Source of the DNA: a virus
Length of the DNA stretch: 22,276 nt
Virus record (IMG/VR): IMGVR_UViG_3300035698_005782
Location: 1-22,276 of that record
Reading direction: 5' to 3' (one strand)
The stretch's first letter is position 1. Each line of letters begins with the position of its first letter. The translations under genes and the position numbers were made by a program. Of the stretch, positions 3,256 to 20,586 are shown one piece after another. The notes under the pieces were generated by a model that was given only the letters and a program-made list of their open reading frames with translations, ran no database searches and was not told the origin of the DNA.

Positions 3256-4431
3256 ATGGCTCTATTCGACAAAGTAAGCACAATAGAAGACATGGAAAAT
3301 ATCTTTTACGGTTCTGCTCCTGGCTCTGAACTTGTTCAGAAGGATGCACCTGTTATAACAAGTACAACTGGAGTTTACAACCAGATATATGGTGCAAAGG
3401 TTTGGGCAGCATTAAACCAAGAAGCTAACGCTTTTGGAATACTACCTAAAACACCTTGGACAAAATCAGGATGGAGAATAATAACCACACGAGCAGCAGC
3501 AAGTGGCGGCGGACTAGCAGAAAATGCAGCATTGCCTTCAACTATAAAGCCTACATTTGCAACTGAGGTCGCAACCCCAAAGACAATCGCACATACATTC
3601 GATGTCTCAGAAGTTCAGGAGTTCCTCGCAACAGAGTCACAAGATGACGCTTTTGGTGGAATGGAACAGATGAGAGCATTAATGGCTACACACCACAGGG
3701 AAATGATTAACGTCATGCTCCTTGCGGACGTATCAGCAGAAGCTGATGGTGCAGGTGCAGCAAGGACAACCACAGACAAATATCCTGTAGAGTCTCTTGA
3801 CAGAGTTTGTGCAAGTGATTCTGAAGAAGATGCCTTTGGTGGTTCATACAGCAGTTGGTTTGACATTTACGGAAGTGGTGACAGAGATGCAGCGTTAGCA
3901 GGGTATGATGCCTATGTTAGCCATGCTTCTGGAACAGACAGGTCACTAACTGACCTGCTCATTCGAACAATGTTATACCAGACAAAGACCTATGGCGGAA
4001 ATACAAGCGTTATCCTAACCGGATTGGATACATACAGCAAGTGCCAAGGACTGTACGATTCTTACGTGAGGTATAGCCCTCTCGGAGAGGCAACAGCACA
4101 GTTCGGCGTAAACGGTATTCAAACAGCAGATGGTATCAACACAGGAATCCACATATCAAGCCTGTACGACAAACCTTTAGTAACATCAAAGAATGCTCCA
4201 GCAGATACAATAAGTAGAATGTATTTTTTGGACACAACTGACCCTGAAGGATTTGGAGAACCTAGACTCGGAATGATGATAGCAAAGCCTACTCAGTATT
4301 TCGAAGCAGGTATGCGTACAGGATTGCCTCATGCAATAGACAGACTCGGAACAGAGGGTATGTTTAGAACCATGGGAGAAACAGTATGTAGATTCTTTGT
4401 TGGACAGGGTAAGCTCAGAGACTTACTTTAA
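3256..4431 (+). CDS. Major capsid protein, HK97 fold
   Basis: A 391-aa protein directly after the protease, with AGGAG well placed before the ATG. Features expected of HK97-fold capsid proteins are an N-terminal region ending near a TTGVYNQIYGAKVW segment, a central region (VATPKTIAHTFDVSEVQEFLA, then an EM-rich long helix) and a C-terminal P/A-domain-like part with TGLDTYSKCQGL and an end rich in Gly and Arg. It would form the icosahedral shell. The call rests mainly on gene position, size and general pattern, not on a specific catalytic signature. The codons are somewhat richer in C/G than those of neighbouring genes, consistent with high expression. A hairpin lies downstream. Confidence 0.85.
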   Translation: MALFDKVSTIEDMENIFYGSAPGSELVQKDAPVITSTTGVYNQIYGAKVWAALNQEANAFGILPKTPWTKSGWRIITTRAAASGGGLAENAALPSTIKPTFATEVATPKTIAHTFDVSEVQEFLATESQDDAFGGMEQMRALMATHHREMINVMLLADVSAEADGAGAARTTTDKYPVESLDRVCASDSEEDAFGGSYSSWFDIYGSGDRDAALAGYDAYVSHASGTDRSLTDLLIRTMLYQTKTYGGNTSVILTGLDTYSKCQGLYDSYVRYSPLGEATAQFGVNGIQTADGINTGIHISSLYDKPLVTSKNAPADTISRMYFLDTTDPEGFGEPRLGMMIAKPTQYFEAGMRTGLPHAIDRLGTEGMFRTMGETVCRFFVGQGKLRDLL

Positions 4432-4987: not shown

Positions 4988-5251
4988 ATGACAATCGTAA
5001 CTACAATCGACCATAGGATGCCAGTAGGCAATAGAATTTGTGTATATGGAAATTCAGTTTTAAGTGGATCAACAGCAACAGGCGAAGTAATAACAACTCT
5101 GGAAAGAGTAGAACAGTTCTTCCTCGTAGTTGCAGGCGCAACCCAAAAAGGTGTATCGGTAAATGAGACACTTCCACTATCAAGCGGTACAGTTACCGCA
5201 GTAACTGAAACAAACGATCAAACATTCTATTGGATGGCAATCGGTCAATAG
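4988..5251 (+). CDS. Putative head decoration protein, copy 1 of a tandem pair
   Basis: An 87-aa protein with AGGTGA 4 nt before its ATG. It aligns without any gap to the next gene product over the full 87 residues, with about 53 identical positions counted by eye (roughly 61%). Shared blocks include GNR near residue 15, SVLSG at 23-27, VITxLER at 34-40 and QKG/SVN around 53-59, then TLPL, SGTV and an AIG end. The sequence looks wholly beta-stranded, with no signal peptide. A small, highly expressed-looking gene just downstream of the capsid gene fits a capsid cement or decoration protein; this is inference. Confidence 0.65.
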   Translation: MTIVTTIDHRMPVGNRICVYGNSVLSGSTATGEVITTLERVEQFFLVVAGATQKGVSVNETLPLSSGTVTAVTETNDQTFYWMAIGQ

Positions 5252-5259
5252 GTGAGAAT

Positions 5260-5523
5260 ATGGCAATCGCAACGACAGTAAATCACATAATGAATTTCGG
5301 TAATAGGAAATGGATAGAGGGAACATCAGTACTATCTGGCGGAGTATCTACTGCGAATGTAATAACAGGCTTAGAGAGAGTAGATCAATTCTTTATATTT
5401 GTAAAAGGCGGAACACAAAAAGGTTGTTCTGTTAATGCAACATTACCTTTAGCAAGTGGAACAGTATTAGCGGTAGTTGAAACAGCTAATGGTACATTTG
5501 GGTGGATAGCAATAGGTGCATGA
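5260..5523 (+). CDS. Putative head decoration protein, copy 2 of a tandem pair
   Basis: An 87-aa paralogue of the preceding gene, same length, ungapped. The start is ATG 5260 with AGGTGAGA just upstream; an upstream in-frame start at 5230 would overlap copy 1 and add residues not found there. Differences cluster at residues 17-20 (CVY against WIE), 28-33 and 73-81, which may be surface loops. It carries one Cys (position 56) not present in copy 1. Two diverged but length-conserved copies suggest both are kept by selection, perhaps for different capsid positions such as penton and hexon, or for a hetero-oligomer. Confidence 0.65.
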   Translation: MAIATTVNHIMNFGNRKWIEGTSVLSGGVSTANVITGLERVDQFFIFVKGGTQKGCSVNATLPLASGTVLAVVETANGTFGWIAIGA

Positions 5524-5524
5524 T

Positions 5525-6772
5525 ATGAATTTAAAAATACTAATAGTAATCGCAGCAGTTATTTTAATAAGTTCACTTTTAGCACTATCAACTCTAACCG
5601 CAGGAACACCATCTCTTTCAGCATGGGTTACACCGGCAACAGACCCAATTTATACTGCAATTAACTATACACATTTTAATGCAACTTTTACCTTGGATAC
5701 AGGTAATTCAACAGATATAATTGAATTTAATTTAAGCGGTACAAATACAACACTTCTTGCAGGAAATGTCACAAATACCTCAAAAACAAACTTTGTCGTA
5801 GAATATAATACTACAGGAAACCTCGGAGCAGATGGAAATTATACTTATATAATATGGCTAAATCAATCAGATGGTACTCAATTTCAAACACCATTAAGAA
5901 CAGTTATTTATGATTCAACCGATCCGGTGGCAGCTACCGAAGTACAGACCGAGCAAAATGGGTCTAGTGCTAGTATGACATTAAATTGGGCAGGTAATGT
6001 TACAGACTTAAACCCACATACATGCTGGGCAATATTATTTCCTACAAATACCTCAATTAATTATACAAATGTTACAGGTACACTTGCATTAATATCAGCA
6101 GGAGAATATTATTGTACTATATCTATAACAGAAAGTTCTATAACTGAAAGAGGAACATTTATATTACAACCATATATGAACGATTCAACAGGAAACGAAG
6201 CAGTAGGAACAAATGTAACCCTTGTTGTAAATACATTATATGGTGATTCTTGGAATATGATAGGCGCAACTAGGAACACAACTACTTATGATATAGGAGC
6301 TTTAACTACACTAATTACTCATGTAAGTGTATGGGATTATGATAATCAGAACCATACAAACTATGTAGTAGGCGCAGGAACAAATAATGATACTGATATA
6401 GAAGAGGGACACCCAATGTATATTTATTTAGCCGGAACTAGAGGAACAGAATATTATATATTTAGGGAAATAAAGGAAAATAGGAATGTAGCAAATGTTA
6501 CAAACCTAACTTCTGGATGGAATCAAATTAGTTTATTCAATAAAACAGGACTAACACTCGAATATGTGGCAGACCAAGCATTAACTAAAACAACAGGTTT
6601 AGACCAAAGAATAAACTATGTATCGCTTTATGATTCAGAAAACCAAATATACATTACCCACAGAAATGACTTTAGTATATTCGATGATTACAGACTAGAG
6701 TATGGCGAAGCGGTATGGGTTTTCGTAAATAACAGCGCAGGTAACTGGTCGACAATAAGTATGGAGAGATAA
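5525..6772 (+). CDS. Secreted, sequon-rich surface protein with GWN-type repeats
   Basis: A 415-aa protein. The start is ATG 5525 (GGTG 6 nt upstream), 1 nt after the previous stop. Residues ~4-26 are a hydrophobic signal peptide or N-terminal anchor (ILIVIAAVILISSLLALSTL). The mature part has about 25 N-x-S/T sequons, so heavy N-glycosylation outside the archaeal cell is expected. Residues ~30-235 look like two Ig/fibronectin-like domains. Residues ~240-412 contain two copies of a repeat: WNMIG then VSVWDYDNQ, and WNQIS then VSLYDSENQ, each followed by an Asp/Glu-Gly segment and a Tyr/Trp-rich strand. Similar GWN repeats occur in archaeal surface proteins. It may cover the virion or modify the host envelope. 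Confidence 0.7.
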   Translation: MNLKILIVIAAVILISSLLALSTLTAGTPSLSAWVTPATDPIYTAINYTHFNATFTLDTGNSTDIIEFNLSGTNTTLLAGNVTNTSKTNFVVEYNTTGNLGADGNYTYIIWLNQSDGTQFQTPLRTVIYDSTDPVAATEVQTEQNGSSASMTLNWAGNVTDLNPHTCWAILFPTNTSINYTNVTGTLALISAGEYYCTISITESSITERGTFILQPYMNDSTGNEAVGTNVTLVVNTLYGDSWNMIGATRNTTTYDIGALTTLITHVSVWDYDNQNHTNYVVGAGTNNDTDIEEGHPMYIYLAGTRGTEYYIFREIKENRNVANVTNLTSGWNQISLFNKTGLTLEYVADQALTKTTGLDQRINYVSLYDSENQIYITHRNDFSIFDDYRLEYGEAVWVFVNNSAGNWSTISMER

Positions 6773-6774
6773 CT

Positions 6775-7419
6775 ATGAAAAGAATACTAATAACATTGGT
6801 AGCATTGATGATTATGTTAATACCTTTAGCTGCGGCACAGCAAACACCTATGCCTATAGCTGTTAAGCTGACTGCTGATTATCCAGGCAGTAAGATGATT
6901 ACAATAACAAACATAAGAACATCGGAGTCATTTTTAGGTATGACTAACCAACTAGGAGAAGCTATATTTGATTGGGCAAACTCTAAGTCAGGTTATGAAG
7001 TAGGGGATAATTTCAGGATATCAATACAAGGAATAGAAGAGAGGGTTATAACATATAATGGAGCGCCATTTGGTTTAATTACATTTATGGGAGATAATGC
7101 GTGTGGCGCATGTCCAGGTTGTCCTATATGCCCAGACCCAATAGTATGCGAAACTTGTGAGGTATGCGAAGAACCAGAAGAATGCCCTGAATGTCCAGAT
7201 GTTACAATAATTTATATTATAACACTTATAGCAGGTGCTATATTGGCTATGGGAACAAGGGCAGGGTTAAAGATATACAAAAAAAGAGACGGAACAGTAG
7301 CAATACAACACTATCATAACGGTATAAGCTCATACCATGACCCTAATATTACCCACAGAAACCCTTTATACCGACATAAAAAGGGAGAATTACAGCCAGT
7401 ATTACCTAATAAACTATGA
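6775..7419 (+). CDS. Single-pass membrane protein with Cys-rich stalk
   Basis: A 214-aa protein with a clear signal peptide (residues ~1-21, ending LAAAQQ). An Ig-like extracellular domain of about 90 residues follows. Then comes a stalk at ~110-142 with eleven cysteines, mostly in CxxC or CP pairs (ACGACPGCPICPDP, CETCEVCEE, CPECPD). A transmembrane helix (~147-165, IIYIITLIAGAILAMG) and a basic cytoplasmic tail with KKRDG complete it. The topology is outside, Cys stalk, membrane, inside. The stalk could be disulphide cross-linked or bind metal. GGAGAG precedes the ATG. It is adjacent to the secreted glycoprotein gene, so the two may work together at the cell surface. Confidence 0.7.
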   Translation: MKRILITLVALMIMLIPLAAAQQTPMPIAVKLTADYPGSKMITITNIRTSESFLGMTNQLGEAIFDWANSKSGYEVGDNFRISIQGIEERVITYNGAPFGLITFMGDNACGACPGCPICPDPIVCETCEVCEEPEECPECPDVTIIYIITLIAGAILAMGTRAGLKIYKKRDGTVAIQHYHNGISSYHDPNITHRNPLYRHKKGELQPVLPNKL

Positions 7420-7427
7420 GTGATTAT

Positions 7428-8003
7428 ATGACCGAAACCCCATACCCAGTGAGCGGAGTAGTATACGATATAGGTGGATCAGCCCTATTAAACGCAGTAG
7501 TTACACTTAGAAATGTAACACAGGCAAAGTGGTTACCATCTGACAAATCTTCTACAACCAATTCTTCCGGACAATATACAGTAGACCTAGCTAATGTTCC
7601 TGGCGGATGGACAGCTAATGATAAGATACAGGTAGTAGCGTGGAACTCAGAGAGAACACACTCTATGGATCACAGGTTTACAGCAGTAGCCGCAACAGGT
7701 GTTGAAGCAAAAGATATTTATCTTCATATAGGCGCTCCGTTACTAGGTTCTACTATGGTAAATAGTATTACAACCACAAATAACACAGGTGGTGGTCTTT
7801 ATGCTCATATATATGATAGAACAAACGATCATAAGGTAATGACAATAGAAACACCTACTGGAGACAGTAAGCATATTTATTTTGGTTATGGAAACGCTGG
7901 AAAATTCTTTGATGGTGGTCTTTGTATAGTTTATGAGAGCGAAACCACTGGGGAGTTAGAAGTCGTAATTACCTCAGCAGACGATGTAAAACATGAGGCG
8001 TAA
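7428..8003 (+). CDS. Ig-like (carboxypeptidase regulatory-like) domain protein
   Basis: A 191-aa protein. ATG 7428 is chosen over ATG 7416 because GTGAT lies just upstream and because the N-terminus then aligns with the paralogous start at 8285 (MTETPYPVSG against MTTTPYPISG). Residues ~1-95 are a CarboxypepD_reg-type beta-sandwich with the typical NSSGQYTVDLAN strand-turn. The C-terminal ~95 residues are a second beta-rich domain (GGLYAHIYDR, HIYFGYGNAG) that I do not recognise. There is no signal peptide, so it is cytoplasmically made, unlike the two genes before it. It is plausibly a virion decoration or neck fibre (whisker) protein. Confidence 0.65.
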   Translation: MTETPYPVSGVVYDIGGSALLNAVVTLRNVTQAKWLPSDKSSTTNSSGQYTVDLANVPGGWTANDKIQVVAWNSERTHSMDHRFTAVAATGVEAKDIYLHIGAPLLGSTMVNSITTTNNTGGGLYAHIYDRTNDHKVMTIETPTGDSKHIYFGYGNAGKFFDGGLCIVYESETTGELEVVITSADDVKHEA

Positions 8004-9647: not shown

Positions 9648-9749
9648 ATGAAAGGTCTAATAAAGAAGATTGAAAACACCACAAGTGGTGTAGATATGTT
9701 GCATCTCAAGACAGATATTCTTGAGGCGCTAAAGAAGAAGGGTGTTTAA
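9648..9749 (+). CDS. 33-aa basic peptide between terminator and tube genes
   Basis: A short ORF with an excellent ribosome site: AAGGTGATaac directly before ATG 9648, 4 nt after the previous stop. It ends 1 nt before the tail tube ATG at 9751. The product (MKGLIKKIENTTSGVDML and onward, ending LKKKGV) looks like two amphipathic Lys-rich helices. It fills the whole gap between two structural genes, which favours real translation. The function is unknown; it might act in translational coupling for the tube gene. Confidence 0.55.
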   Translation: MKGLIKKIENTTSGVDMLHLKTDILEALKKKGV

Positions 9750-9750
9750 T

Positions 9751-10701
9751 ATGGTAACAGGAGCACACTCATATGTAACATACGGAATCGAAGATTCAGC
9801 TTATGGTACTGAAGCAGGTACATTGGAATCAGCCTTTGGTAAGGGTCTTAGAATAACACCTAGAATGGCGAATAATCTAATAGTAACCAGAGGTCTAGGT
9901 AGTAGAAATGCACAGGCTCTAACACCAGGAAACTTTGAAGGATCACTAGATATAGAATTTACTCTAGGAACTTCTCACTGGTTAGCTGCTGTAATGGGCA
10001 CATCAGTAAGTACAAGTTCAGCGCCTTATATACACACATACACTGAAGCTAACGATATCCCAAGTATCACAATAGAAAATGGTATAGACCTTTCAACAGA
10101 CTCAGTTAGAAAATATTTAGGGTGTAAGATAAATACATGTACAATAACAGCAAATGTAGGAGAACCAGTACGCATAAGCCTTAGTGTATTATATAAAACA
10201 GAAACAGAGGGAACAACTTTAGATGCTACACCTGCAGTTGATGCCGAAAGTCCTATGATTTTTGCACACGGAGATTTGGAAATACCAAATGCTACAGACG
10301 TAGCAAAGGTACAAAGTTTTACACTAACTATAAACAATAACTTAATACCTACACGTGGACTAGGTAGTAGGTTTAAGCAAGCTGAAACACCAGGAAACAG
10401 AGAATATACATTTAGCCTAACTAAAGCAATAGAAAATGCCACACAACTAGAGAGGTTTTATGGTGGGGCAACAACACCAGTCGCAGCCCCAGCAGAAACA
10501 GCAACACTAGAGATAAACTTCACAAATGGTTTGGCAGCAGCTAATGAAAGGCACATATACTTCTTAGGCACAGGTGTCCAGTTTGATGACCACAGTGATC
10601 CTCAGGAAGCAGGAGCTAGAACAGACGAAGAAATAAGCGGTACAATCAGGTCTGGAAGCATTATAGGAGAAGATGCGACGGCGACCACGATTTTTGATTG
10701 A
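9751..10701 (+). CDS. Tail tube protein with internal duplication
   Basis: A 316-aa protein. ATG 9751 is preferred to GTG 9742 because GGGTGT precedes it. Two similar segments are seen: residues ~41-63 (NNLIVTRGLGSRNAQALTPG then NFE) and ~196-218 (NNLIPTRGLGSRFKQAETPG then NRE), each followed by beta strands. This indicates two tandem copies of the tube-type beta domain. A C-terminal beta-rich part (~240-316) completes the protein. The place between tail terminator and tail assembly chaperone genes is the canonical one for a tail tube/major tail protein. With two domains per chain, rings might be trimers rather than hexamers, as known for T5 pb6. Confidence 0.7.
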   Translation: MVTGAHSYVTYGIEDSAYGTEAGTLESAFGKGLRITPRMANNLIVTRGLGSRNAQALTPGNFEGSLDIEFTLGTSHWLAAVMGTSVSTSSAPYIHTYTEANDIPSITIENGIDLSTDSVRKYLGCKINTCTITANVGEPVRISLSVLYKTETEGTTLDATPAVDAESPMIFAHGDLEIPNATDVAKVQSFTLTINNNLIPTRGLGSRFKQAETPGNREYTFSLTKAIENATQLERFYGGATTPVAAPAETATLEINFTNGLAAANERHIYFLGTGVQFDDHSDPQEAGARTDEEISGTIRSGSIIGEDATATTIFD

Positions 10702-10720: not shown

Positions 10721-10745
10721 CCTCACCAATAAAATAAAGGTGAGG
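10721..10745 (+). promoter_or_regulatory. Hairpin overlapping the HNH ribosome site
   Basis: A perfect 7-bp inverted repeat, CCTCACC / GGTGAGG, with an 11-nt A-rich loop. The right arm is the start of the GGTGAGGTGAT element that precedes ATG 10754. In read-through transcripts from the tail operon the hairpin would bury part of the Shine-Dalgarno region. In a transcript starting near 10740 it could not form. It could also act as a terminator for the tube gene. Confidence 0.45.
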
Positions 10746-10753
10746 TGATAAGT

Positions 10754-11314
10754 ATGCACATTTGGTCAAAAAAATGTAATAAGTGTGGAATATTCATAGG
10801 AAAGAAAGAACATAAATGTAAACGTCCATGGAATGAAGGAAAAGAGTTCCTTAAAGGAGAAGATAATCCAAGATGGAAGGGTGGAATAAGTAAACAATGG
10901 TGCTATAAAATAGCAAAACAATTACCAATGATATGTAATAAGTGTGGAAGTAAGAATAATCTTGTAGTACATCATAAAGATAGAAACCCAGAAAATAATA
11001 AGTTAGAAAACCTTGAATGGTTATGTGTAAGATGTCATACAGTAATAGAGCATGATGCATCATATAAAAAAGGACACATACCATGGAACACTGGAAAAAA
11101 ACTAACAGAAGAACATAAGAAAAATATAGGTATTGGGTGCAAAGGTAAAACATACTATAAAAGAACACTTAAAATAAAAAAGAAAATGAGTAAAAGTGCA
11201 ATAAATAGGTGTAAAACAACACCAGTATGGAATAAAAATAAAAATCATCCAAAATATAAAGAGTATATAGAAAAAATGAGTATATTAGCAAAGCAGAGAA
11301 AATTAAGGAAGTGA
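10754..11314 (+). CDS. Free-standing HNH endonuclease with NUMOD-like motifs
   Basis: A 186-aa, very Lys- and Asn-rich protein (GTG 10745 is an alternative start; GGTGAT favours ATG 10754). A CNKC knuckle at residues 61-64 and LVVHHKDRNPENNKLENL at ~70-87, closing with CVRCH at 91-95, make the HNH fold with its zinc site. H73/H74 and N87 are the likely catalytic residues. An N-terminal CNKC...HKC knuckle (8-22) and the segments WNEGKEFLKGEDNPRWKGG and WNTGKKLTEEHKKNIG resemble NUMOD DNA-binding motifs of homing endonucleases. It would nick or cut DNA to spread itself. Base composition is much more A-rich than in the tail genes on both sides, so it is a likely mobile insertion. Confidence 0.85.
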   Translation: MHIWSKKCNKCGIFIGKKEHKCKRPWNEGKEFLKGEDNPRWKGGISKQWCYKIAKQLPMICNKCGSKNNLVVHHKDRNPENNKLENLEWLCVRCHTVIEHDASYKKGHIPWNTGKKLTEEHKKNIGIGCKGKTYYKRTLKIKKKMSKSAINRCKTTPVWNKNKNHPKYKEYIEKMSILAKQRKLRK

Positions 11315-11318
11315 TTTA

Positions 11319-11714
11319 ATGAGAGTAACTAAAGACCTTGGTGTCTTTAAGTACACTGAAGAGTTTGGTGAGATAAACGACGATGGATTAAAAAGAAAAG
11401 GAAAAGTAATAATACAACGTCTTAATGCAGGAGAAGAAAACCAATTAAATCAGGCGTGTATAGACACAGTAGATAATGTTTCCATTCAAAATTTTGCGAG
11501 ACATAAGGAACTTATGGTTGTAGTTTCAACTATAGAAGCGCCATATAAGGGTATAAGTAGAAAAGAAACACATACAAATGTTCAGAGAATGCCTAGACAT
11601 ATATTCCTTAAATTAACAGAAGAAATAGAGAAAATTCATAAGATAGACGAAAAAAAAGACAAAAGCTCCGGAGTGCAGCAGTTAGGGGAACAGAAACAAG
11701 CGATCCCTTCATAA
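11319..11714 (+). CDS. Tail assembly chaperone, short (G-like) product
   Basis: A 131-aa protein with AAGTGAT before its ATG, made when no frameshift occurs. It has an N-terminal beta/alpha region (VFKYTEEFGEINDDG, VIIQRLNAGEENQL), a helix pair, and a Lys-rich C-terminus that contains the slippery A-run. By position (between tail tube and tape measure) and by its frameshift extension it is the G partner of a lambda G/GT-type chaperone pair. Those proteins bind the tape measure protein and recruit tube subunits. The tail after the slip site (DKSSGVQQLGEQKQ) is polar and probably unstructured. Confidence 0.75.
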   Translation: MRVTKDLGVFKYTEEFGEINDDGLKRKGKVIIQRLNAGEENQLNQACIDTVDNVSIQNFARHKELMVVVSTIEAPYKGISRKETHTNVQRMPRHIFLKLTEEIEKIHKIDEKKDKSSGVQQLGEQKQAIPS

Positions 11715-11863
11715 AAATGCAAATGATTTACCATAGGTTTATAAAATACGGTATATCACCGGAGCAGGTAGATAAGTGGGATATGGCAACTGTCATAAGC
11801 CAATATGAAATGCTAGGAGAGTACGAGCGTGTCAGAGCTAAAAGTCCAATTGGGAGTAGATAA
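11319..11863 (+). CDS. Tail assembly chaperone, -1 frameshift (GT-like) product
   Basis: The joined product reads 11319-11657, then re-reads base 11657 and continues in the -1 frame to the TAA at 11861-11863. It has 113 + 68 = 181 residues. The -1 frame is open over its whole length from the A-run to that stop. It encodes a T-like domain with SDPFIKMQMIYHRFIKYGIS and PEQVDKWDMATVISQYEML. This sort of helical segment follows the slip site in many phage chaperones. An internal ATG at 11717 exists but lacks a ribosome site, which argues for frameshifting. The last 35 bases overlap the tape measure gene. Confidence 0.75.
11651..11657 (+). promoter_or_regulatory. -1 ribosomal frameshift slippery heptamer
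   Basis: A_AAA_AAA in the zero frame (codon starts at 11652 and 11655), inside a run of eight A and followed by G. It matches the X_XXY_YYZ rule for simultaneous -1 slippage of two Lys tRNAs. A short palindrome CTCCGGAG lies 9 bases downstream at 11666-11673; no strong pseudoknot is obvious by eye. Confidence 0.75.
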
Positions 11864-12782
11864 GCAAAGTCTATCAGAGACAGCAAATAAGATAGCCTCA
11901 GCACTAAAGGGTGGTAGCGGTGGACTGATGGGTGGGTTCTCCTCTTTCATGGAAGGCGCATCCGGTGGCGGTGCAGGCGAGAGTAAGGGTTTAATGGGTA
12001 CTTTCGGTAAAATGGCGGGCACTTTAAGTATCATTTCTGCGGGAATAAACCAAGGAATAGAATTAACAAAGAAATTAGTAAGTTTTATGACACAATCATC
12101 ACCGTACCTAAAGGGTATATTAGATATATTTAATAGGTCATTTATGCTTTTCTTTAAGCCTGCGGGTGACTTTCTAGCTTACTTACTAAGACCGCTAGCT
12201 ATATCGTTACTTAGAATGTCTATAGGATGGATAAAATGGTCACAGGAGTTCGGTAAATCATTCGGGAAACTTATGCAAGGAGATTTAGCGGGGTTCTTAA
12301 AAGACCTAGTAGGTGGTACGATAGCAATAGGTACAGCATTTAAAGACTGGTTATTAGACACATTATGGTATGTTGTAGTAGGCAGTAAGCTAGACCTAGC
12401 TAAATGGATAGTAACTGCAGCAGATTCTATACTCAATAGTACGGACTTATGGGATTTTGCTATGTGGATAGGAGATACTGCTAACGATTTTATAACAGGT
12501 ACATGGGATTTTGGTAAATGGATAGCAGAAAGTATAATGAATTTCATTAGTTCAAGTAGCCCATTTAATTTATCTACATGGATAGCTGAAAATATATGGA
12601 ATTTCGTAACAGGAGATACTGGCACTACAAAAAGTAGTACACCGACAAAGAGTGTTAAAGTTACGAATAATATAACAGTTAGCGGTATAATTGATAACCT
12701 AGGTAGCGCAACACAAGGTAATGTGTTATTTGATATAGCTACACGGTTAGGATCAATGCTAACTTCATATTTAGAGGGTTAA
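11829..12782 (+). CDS. Tape measure protein (short)
   Basis: A 317-aa protein starting at GTG 11829 with AGGAG about 9 nt upstream; it overlaps the chaperone -1 frame by 35 bp. Residues ~28-62 are Gly/Ser/Met-rich. Residues ~64-130 are hydrophobic helices. Residues ~190-262 contain four copies of a W-I repeat, with Trp at 193, 213, 231 and 251 (period 18-20). The C-terminal ~50 residues are Thr/Ser-rich with a final helix. A hydrophobic helical protein directly after the chaperone genes fits a tape measure protein. By the usual ~0.15 nm per residue it would give a tail near 50 nm, short for a siphovirus. Confidence 0.75.
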   Translation: MSELKVQLGVDKQSLSETANKIASALKGGSGGLMGGFSSFMEGASGGGAGESKGLMGTFGKMAGTLSIISAGINQGIELTKKLVSFMTQSSPYLKGILDIFNRSFMLFFKPAGDFLAYLLRPLAISLLRMSIGWIKWSQEFGKSFGKLMQGDLAGFLKDLVGGTIAIGTAFKDWLLDTLWYVVVGSKLDLAKWIVTAADSILNSTDLWDFAMWIGDTANDFITGTWDFGKWIAESIMNFISSSSPFNLSTWIAENIWNFVTGDTGTTKSSTPTKSVKVTNNITVSGIIDNLGSATQGNVLFDIATRLGSMLTSYLEG

Positions 12783-16300: not shown

Positions 16301-17094
16301 AAAATTATACAAATAGTTCTTTTATTGATTCTATTTTATGGGAAGTTAAAGATACAGATTCAAGAAGAAATTTAACTGTTATATCATCATGCATAAATAA
16401 TGGGGTTGATTTTAGATTAAAAATTGATGCTTCTGTAAGTCCAGATGAAGTTGAATGGAGTTGTTATAATGGAAGTGATTATGAGGTTATATCATTAACA
16501 ACTGGTCCAGATGGGGGAACACGTGCGTATGAAGAAGCTGTTTGGTGGTTTTATAAAACATCCTTTACAGCACAAGTGGGGCAGAATTACATTACAGTCT
16601 ATGCAAATGATTCAGCAGGCAATCTAGGTGCTACAACAGTATACTTCTGGGTAGGTGATTATAATATAAGCTATGATTATCCAACAAATACATCAGACTT
16701 TGAGCTTAACTTTAGTTCAGGAACGTATAGCTTTAATTATACACATCAGACAGTAACATGGGTGAATATAACACCTGAGAATCAGACAAGTTCAATAGGA
16801 ATACATAATGTTACTGTATGGGAATATACAGGATTAACAGGCAATGTATCAATAGATGTGTTATTAAATGATTCTGTACCTGCGTGTATGAGTTTTTATC
16901 TTACAAATAGCTCTTCTACTTACTTAGCAAAGGATACATCAACAGCACTTACATTAAGTGATTCGCAACAAACAATATACACATCTACAGAAGTTAGTAT
17001 CAGTAGACAGTTTTTTGAATGGGTAGAATTTATAAATTGTACTGTTTCACAGACATTTGACCATCTAATAAACTTCACATTTACGGTGTTATAA
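13303..17094 (+). CDS. Giant multidomain surface protein with nested phosphoesterase-like module
   Basis: A 1263-aa protein; ATG 13303 overlaps the previous TGA. Residues ~4-22 are a signal peptide or N-terminal membrane anchor (YIGVLLFVLLASGVIYVSMG). Residues ~25-195 form an archaeal surface-type beta domain; ~200-450 are DUF2341-like (NFGCRIPIPVTN, ILWLYGCNST). An Ig-like domain starts at ~514 (DPPTSTLSTPADN). A calcineurin-like module (~557-827) interrupts it, and its last strands resume at ~833-903 (TWAIAVTDNAS, TLTLNVSG). In the module GD (D606) and GNHE (647-650) are present, but D-x-H reads I-I-Y, the next His reads G-K (727-728) and GHxH reads NDMH (H767). A second Ig domain (~905-1120) has an insert at ~951-1086. 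Sequons are very frequent. It may be a host-contact fibre or secreted protein. Confidence 0.7.
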   Translation: MVDKKYIGVLLFVLLASGVIYVSMGNDVRIRVDNDKSTFYIYNGGWRISGIEYNKLFKGTSLCYRSAQNINIEYIIEDKNITIIRTTPYIGQCESAEIIDIYTFDGNINDVNLFPISHTVEVNGAEGLIYQYEVRNLVYDGETEPVTGTSMSFGMNMKVEWDDDYYWGKVYKSGILKIRYRPEGNETYNLRLFDPIDDWADENFGCRIPIPVTNTASLSQIVTIDNADYSLFIGNMSDTGDDIVFFSNDNATTYDHLPVFINKTNTSLFLVNPTSESILWLYGCNSTAIPDNTSVNVAKFWDTFDNDTYWNDGDDSGCTSYVANGFMNLNATSSGGYALRIGNVAMWGTTDDITVLAGYDTVDLSEHSSDRDFNMVLRNANYNGDSMEFISKAFDPNWYFASQYYDGSSQWYKNYATPQLINKVYFMEFIVQPTTDDMFSNLYNSDYTALNDTLSWTGYTDNTIDRIARLRARDSQSAAVDSRVYFVVVYDNSTISFTPSTIEYFVAAEAPSDDPPTSTLSTPADNAITTTYTVNFTYTPTDDHLLSSANLYYKPNEVLKIATVGIIYNANESVGSDYQDNTTNRLGSAITEIDAWGADVLVNGGDSVSANYGGGCDTGESAQVKLDLQNVTNILNDTSASLNHVFGNHEICNLVVADVLEIWDRDDSYYYQDIKGYRLIYLDALVTANSPCHYTDGDCHRALGSTQLAWVGELVTNSTMPAILFIGKVASNFTSTGGWYITDRADFQTIIQADNSSAILVIENDMHGMYNDTSESVWYVSPGSFLDGLMGRSGEGDWVEMSAYLKMTLYPNNNTIHFNHTTITNSWYQIYNYGDFKTNSTWEWNAKATNGSVMTNNSVNGIEDTLPSEYGDINYTWAIAVTDNASQTTFSANRTLTLNVSGDLDPPVIEVLLPENISYTTTSLILSWSTNEEPNWVVYSLNGGSNITLNDSFWTYPYYQEDADETTTSGHWGNPVTRLYDGDWGTSSMPSSESIVYLYQNYTNSSFIDSILWEVKDTDSRRNLTVISSCINNGVDFRLKIDASVSPDEVEWSCYNGSDYEVISLTTGPDGGTRAYEEAVWWFYKTSFTAQVGQNYITVYANDSAGNLGATTVYFWVGDYNISYDYPTNTSDFELNFSSGTYSFNYTHQTVTWVNITPENQTSSIGIHNVTVWEYTGLTGNVSIDVLLNDSVPACMSFYLTNSSSTYLAKDTSTALTLSDSQQTIYTSTEVSISRQFFEWVEFINCTVSQTFDHLINFTFTVL

Positions 17095-20127: not shown

Positions 20128-20140
20128 TTACATAGTAACA
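20126..20140 (-). terminator. Hairpin at the end of the leftward cluster
   Basis: A 6-bp inverted repeat TGTTAC / GTAACA with a 3-nt loop spans the stop codon of the leftward nuclease gene. It may help end leftward transcription, but is short. Confidence 0.3.
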
Positions 20141-20526
20141 CTATTTAATACTCTATTTGTAAAAGCATGAATCCATTGTTTGAAATAAGGGTATGTTATT
20201 ACTTCACATTTACCGTACTTGTCTTTATACTTATTTTCTATTTTCCCGCTTGTGACTACAATATACTTGTCGGGATTCGTCTTCGCTATGGCGTTGGTCA
20301 AGCCCCGCAGTGGAACAGGTACAAGTCTCCTTTCTCTCCACACAAACAACTGGTCGTTCTGCACAGCCAATGTACTTTTAGGGTAATCTTTACACTCTAT
20401 AAGTAGGGTAAACCCAGCAAGTTTTGCGAGCACATCAACAGGTCTTCCGTTAGAATCTATTACATTCCACCCAATATCCCTTAAAATAGCCTTAATTATG
20501 TTCTCAAACTCTAGCCCGTTATTCAT
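20128..20526 (-). CDS. PD-(D/E)XK nuclease-like protein
   Basis: A 132-aa protein. The start at 20526 is chosen because a TATA box lies ~26 nt upstream and because the domain begins there (MNNGLEFENIIKAILRDIGW); an upstream in-frame start would add 16 residues lying over the promoter. The nuclease core is seen as a helix with E6/E8, then RPVD (D31), then LLIECKD (E44, K46). This is the D-x(12)-E-x-K arrangement of restriction-endonuclease-like folds such as Holliday junction resolvases and Mrr-type enzymes. It would cut or resolve DNA in replication, recombination or host-DNA degradation. It is the last gene of the leftward cluster. Confidence 0.7.
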   Translation of the reverse strand: MNNGLEFENIIKAILRDIGWNVIDSNGRPVDVLAKLAGFTLLIECKDYPKSTLAVQNDQLFVWRERRLVPVPLRGLTNAIAKTNPDKYIVVTSGKIENKYKDKYGKCEVITYPYFKQWIHAFTNRVLNSVTM

Positions 20527-20547
20527 AGACTTATAATTACCCTGGGG

Positions 20548-20557
20548 TTTATATAAA
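20548..20557 (-). promoter_or_regulatory. TATA box for the leftward nuclease gene
   Basis: TTTATATAAA (self-complementary), centred 26-27 nt from the start codon at 20526 on the minus strand. The leaderless spacing is the same as for the late promoters. Confidence 0.6.
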
Positions 20558-20586
20558 ATAAGCCTGTTATACACCGGTAAAATAAT

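Follow-up and report, generated by a model that had tools for sequence, protein, structure and literature searches.

A programmed -1 ribosomal frameshift most probably yields the G and G-T tail chaperones of the siphovirus-like archaeal virus analyzed here. Its whole IMG/VR virus record, which is linear and 22,276 bases long, we refer to as the window. In the mechanism that we propose, most ribosomes would stay in the zero frame and produce G, a protein of 131 aa. A fraction would slip back by one base, with two tRNA-Lys on the heptamer A_AAA_AAA (11651-11657), and these slipped ribosomes would continue in the -1 frame to the TAA at 11861 to give a G-T fusion of 181 aa. By analogy with lambda G/GT, G would coat the tape measure protein, the T domain would recruit tube subunits, and both G and G-T would depart before completion of the tail. 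The analysis itself shows the reading frames, the gene order, the homology of tube, G, T and tape measure, the conserved slip site and -1 relation, and a chaperone-like predicted fold of G; we infer the occurrence, the ribosomal nature and the efficiency of slippage, as well as what G and T would bind. The features concerned are as follows.

9742 to 10701, plus strand: major tail tube protein (PF18906, Phage_tube_2; Pfam E 1.9e-34).
10745 to 11314, plus strand: HNH endonuclease open reading frame (PF13392, HNH_3; E 3.2e-6), outside the chaperone unit.
11319 to 11714, plus strand: G, predicted tail assembly chaperone, zero-frame product of 131 aa (ATG at 11319, stop at 11712-11714).
11650 to 11657, plus strand: A8 run, seen in the sequence, holding the slip heptamer A_AAA_AAA (11651-11657).
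11657 to 11863, plus strand: T, putative -1 frame extension of 68 codons and a TAA (11861-11863), recognized by its open frame and by the T profile of relatives.
11829 to 12782, plus strand: candidate tape measure protein of 317 aa (GTG start with GGAG upstream), overlapping the end of T.

Across the A8 run the zero-frame codons are GAA AAA AAA GAC, and this codon reading bears out the claim of an earlier, sequence-only reading that A_AAA_AAA stands in the zero frame at 11651-11657, where it has the X_XXY_YYZ form that serves as the heptamer criterion for -1 frameshifting. The same reading had proposed a -1 frame that remains open for 68 codons after the slip and ends at the TAA at 11861-11863, together with a 181-aa fusion, and both hold: the frame is free of stops across 11642-11863, and 113 plus 68 residues give the expected length. 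The remaining two plus-strand frames carry 6 and 7 stops within 11642-11860, and a stop-free frame of equal length was obtained in 20 of 5000 dinucleotide shuffles (a chance of about 0.4%). From the window alone, the heptamer by itself is not significant. Any X_XXY_YYZ heptamer falls in the overlap with P 0.41 when the same protein is recoded synonymously at the same codon usage, and AAAAAAA is matched seven times in the window versus 12.6 expected; in Lys-rich sequence of 36% GC the heptamer is unremarkable. It is the comparison with relatives that decides.

Alignments of the MCP and the tube retrieved well over 100 related contigs, and these were searched for modules with a G open reading frame downstream of the tube and T in a frame overlapping it. 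Initially, only T frames at -1 were taken; L062 and L102, which this first scan had filtered out, were found on inspection to be -1, and a later scan, with +1 also permitted, covered the tail relatives from L123 onward. Removal of T frames at least 80% identical left 43 non-redundant modules, a tally that excludes the low-similarity tails from L140 on and describes modules with an overlapping T rather than an unbiased census. With the first scan confined to -1 and +1 permitted later, T lies at -1 in 42 of the 43, and in 41 the overlap contains an X_XXY_YYZ heptamer, where synonymous recoding predicts 15.2. Alignment of homologues had been put forward as a check on the sequence-only reading, and it finds both the slip site and the -1 frame conserved. 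L123 is the sole module with T at +1/-2, and L050, with T at -1, has no heptamer but simply a T-run that runs into a stop.

Judged from these alignments, the slip lies at a conserved place, but its sequence differs between relatives. A_AAA_AAA is found in the window, L126, L061 and L129, and A_AAA_AAC/G in L128, L130, L058 and L124; 26 modules, almost all of them marine in type, have C_CCT_TTA, preceded by a residue that varies. The closest tail relative, L126, has an identical GAA AAA AAA at identities to the window of 48% in G and 30% in T. An unannotated -1 G/T pair with C_CCT_TTG is also present at 5095-5720 of a methanogen virus, of Methanomassiliicoccales (L007; vir335, BK063680.1).

Homology of the window T frame to the T frames of relatives is supported by a profile built from six relatives with the window excluded, which recovered window T at E 9e-9 among 379 window open reading frames, the next scoring 1.6. 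An earlier profile dominated by marine relatives had missed it (rank 3 at E 1 and rank 6 at E 2.6), and the homology was seen only after closer tail relatives had joined the profile. Window T is predicted to be all-helical (AlphaFold pLDDT 85) and is similar by alignment to the T of halovirus L038. The helical, T-like domain proposed from the letters alone agrees with the predicted fold and with homology within these viruses; no named T domain of lambda type proved similar, and a fold search of BFVD with the T model gave no match. An accidentally open and untranslated -1 frame could take comfort from the probability of 0.41 for the heptamer, but the profile match of T, the arrangement in 42 of 43 modules and the small chance of so long an open frame leave this reading a negligible probability.

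It is also conceivable that T is separately started inside the -1 frame and that the frameshift is absent. The first ATG, GTG or TTG of that frame is the ATG at 11717, just past the G stop, where reinitiation could be imagined, and L123 has an ATG with a Shine-Dalgarno-like GAGGG at the corresponding place. Nevertheless, no Shine-Dalgarno-like sequence precedes 11717, as had been remarked before, whereas one is present for G (ggaagtgat) and for several further genes of the window. A start at 11717 would moreover remove an N-terminal part of T that aligns with L126 and L038, and in most relatives the first ATG of the T frame lies far within or past the conserved core. We consider separate initiation very unlikely; T would instead exist solely within the 181-aa G-T fusion.

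The A8 run itself suggests a different step, namely slippage of RNA polymerase: the host enzyme would add or drop A's, and some mRNAs, with A9 (or A6), would hold G-T as a single frame. Chaperone and fusion would be unchanged and only the step would differ; sequence alone does not tell a slipping ribosome from a slipping RNA polymerase on A8. This run is the sole stretch of at least eight A's in the 22 kb, both strands considered, and is longer than the heptamer requires, which counts against the ribosomal reading. The junction run is likewise the sole such run in L126 and L061 (A8) and in L123 (A9), and in L128, L129 and L124 the longest run, A10, lies exactly at the junction. Runs of nine A's are prone to slippage in many bacteria (PMC1088944), but eight fall below the usual bacterial length, and A8 arises simply from Glu-Lys-Lys (GAA AAA AAA) joined to the heptamer. 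Relatives with C_CCT_TTA, G_GGA_AAN or A_AAA_AAC have no long run; among them, L058 and L130, both with A_AAA_AAC, have runs shorter than polymerase slippage typically needs and so support ribosomal slipping. All long-run relatives but L123 keep T at -1, as ribosomal slipping needs, and the persistence of the -1 relation despite changing heptamers argues for the ribosome. The T frame of L123 is beyond the reach of a -1 shift, again counted against a ribosomal step, and its A9 with T at +1/-2 fits a slipping polymerase directly. On balance, polymerase slippage in the window appears unlikely, and it is similarly doubtful that the A-run lineage as a whole (the window, L126, L061, L123, L124, L128 and L129) makes G-T by this route on A8-A10. 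Were it to do so, transcription would fix the tail chaperone ratio of an archaeal virus, leaving G and T free to drift in their frame relation, as in L123.

L123 merits a comment of its own. This closest tail relative but one combines, within 7231-7477, the A9 run, T at +1/-2 and the ATG with GAGGG upstream; it may reflect a changed mechanism, an assembly (homopolymer) error in A9, or T started at that ATG.

As regards stimulators of the proposed ribosomal frameshift, RNA folding showed nothing unusual around the window slip and no stimulatory structure 3' of it (z 0.04 and 0.57), and none of the eight members of the A-run group has a Shine-Dalgarno-like element upstream of the slip. Among modules with C_CCT_TTA, a Shine-Dalgarno-like 5-mer lies 7-16 nt upstream in 16 of 26, versus 4.9 expected. 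In marine-type loci this element is a possible frameshift stimulator, and one open to test. The marine-type L024 carries a Shine-Dalgarno-like GGAGGT upstream of C_CCT_TTA at 16345-16377.

The predicted fold of the zero-frame product supports its assignment as a tail assembly chaperone. The AlphaFold model of window G (pLDDT 85) scores Z 8.6 with YqbN (3klu; 91 residues aligned), Z 6.4 with the tail assembly chaperone of HK97 (2ob9; 86 residues aligned) and Z 5.1 with the PICI protein 5ir0, all further rows being at Z 2.8 or less; the Foldseek E-values were weak (0.013 for 3klu and 0.42 for 2ob9). Three relatives of G match PF08890 (Phage_TAC_5; XkdN/YqbN-like), relatives also match the PHROG tail-chaperone families 389/344, and matches to the G model in BFVD include annotated tail assembly chaperones. 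The assignment follows from Z scores clear of the rest, these Pfam and PHROG matches of relatives, the BFVD annotations and the position of the gene. Direct sequence searches returned no such matches: window G and T alone had no significant match in Pfam or PHROG, the G protein found nothing among viral contigs, nor did the 181-aa fusion among phage records, and the alignment of G proteins, searched against PDB sequences, gave chance matches only.

That position had been described as exactly between tube and tape measure. G does lie between the two, but it is not directly adjacent to the tube, because the HNH open reading frame intervenes. In L126, which lacks this frame, G starts 49 nt past the tube stop; given its absence from the same place, we read the HNH gene (10745-11314) as a probable later insertion between tube and G. 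The window tube is 66% identical to that of L126 and 51% to that of L123. The candidate tape measure matches TMP-position open reading frames of L007, L012, L015, L054, L061, L123 and L124, and in L126 the start region of the tape measure gene is as in the window.

The structural genes of the virus appear closest to those of archaeal viruses. Among 50,697 annotated phage records, the window MCP matched only haloviruses (Druskaviridae) and one Methanofastidiosa virus and no bacterial phage, which lends support to the archaeal affiliation proposed at the outset. The best matches of the tube were HCTV-1 and HCTV-16, with bacterial phages also present at weaker similarity. No host provirus emerged from two scans of genome contigs based on MCP alignments. 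The MCP (3256-4431) is closest to that of L049 (62%) and the tube (9742-10701) to that of L126 (66%), so that the head and tail modules may differ in history. Elsewhere, a nuclease-like open reading frame on the minus strand (20128-20574) matches Mrr_cat (E 6e-5) and has weak similarity to archaeal Hjc.

The arrangement invites comparison with known tail chaperone systems, foremost lambda G/GT (reviewed in PMC5009743). As in lambda, the order is tube, G, T and tape measure, the -1 slip lies near the end of G, and T occupies the -1 frame without a start of its own. Unlike lambda, the window has A_AAA_AAA as its slip heptamer and an HNH gene between tube and G. The solved structures of XkdN/YqbN-like (PF08890) and HK97 chaperones match the predicted fold of G, which differs from its XkdN/YqbN-like relatives in having no significant sequence match itself.

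Nearer at hand are the archaeal tailed viruses, for which predictions of tail-chaperone frameshifts date back to 2013 (see the reviews PMC5009743 and PMC8211752), with Hardycor1 described likewise (PMC7911831); as the frameshift was already predicted in haloviruses, the present case is less new than the sequence-only reading had hoped. The Druskaviridae HCTV-1, HCTV-5, HVTV-1 and HCTV-16 likewise carry, downstream of the tube, a chaperone annotated as joined by a -1 shift; the MCP of these haloviruses is homologous to that of the window (30%), as is the tube in HCTV-1 and HCTV-16 (35-36%). HCTV-1, HCTV-5 and HVTV-1 use G_GGA_AAN, unlike the window, and there as here the frameshifts are predictions; A_AAA_AAC is reported for HCTV-2 (PMC5009743). 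The magrovirus-like marine contigs (about 25 modules, for example L012, L024 and L028), whose MCP type suggests a possible link to the magroviruses of Poseidoniales, have homologues of the window MCP (at about 45%) and of its tube, G, T and tape measure, with T at -1 as in the window, but carry C_CCT_TTA as the predicted slip site.

We found no measured frameshift in an archaeal virus in the open-access papers covered. In an archaeon, slipping on A_AAA_AAT has been demonstrated for Saccharolobus fucA, the only case for which archaeal -1 frameshifting was described in 2021 as unequivocally shown (PMC8037382), and the sites identified here can therefore be used to ask what archaeal ribosomes need. 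Our analysis carries the predicted chaperone frameshift beyond the haloviruses, into a separate lineage of archaeal-type viruses and dozens of uncultured relatives, among which the slip site changes, from an A-run to C_CCT_TTA or G_GGA_AAN, at one conserved place.
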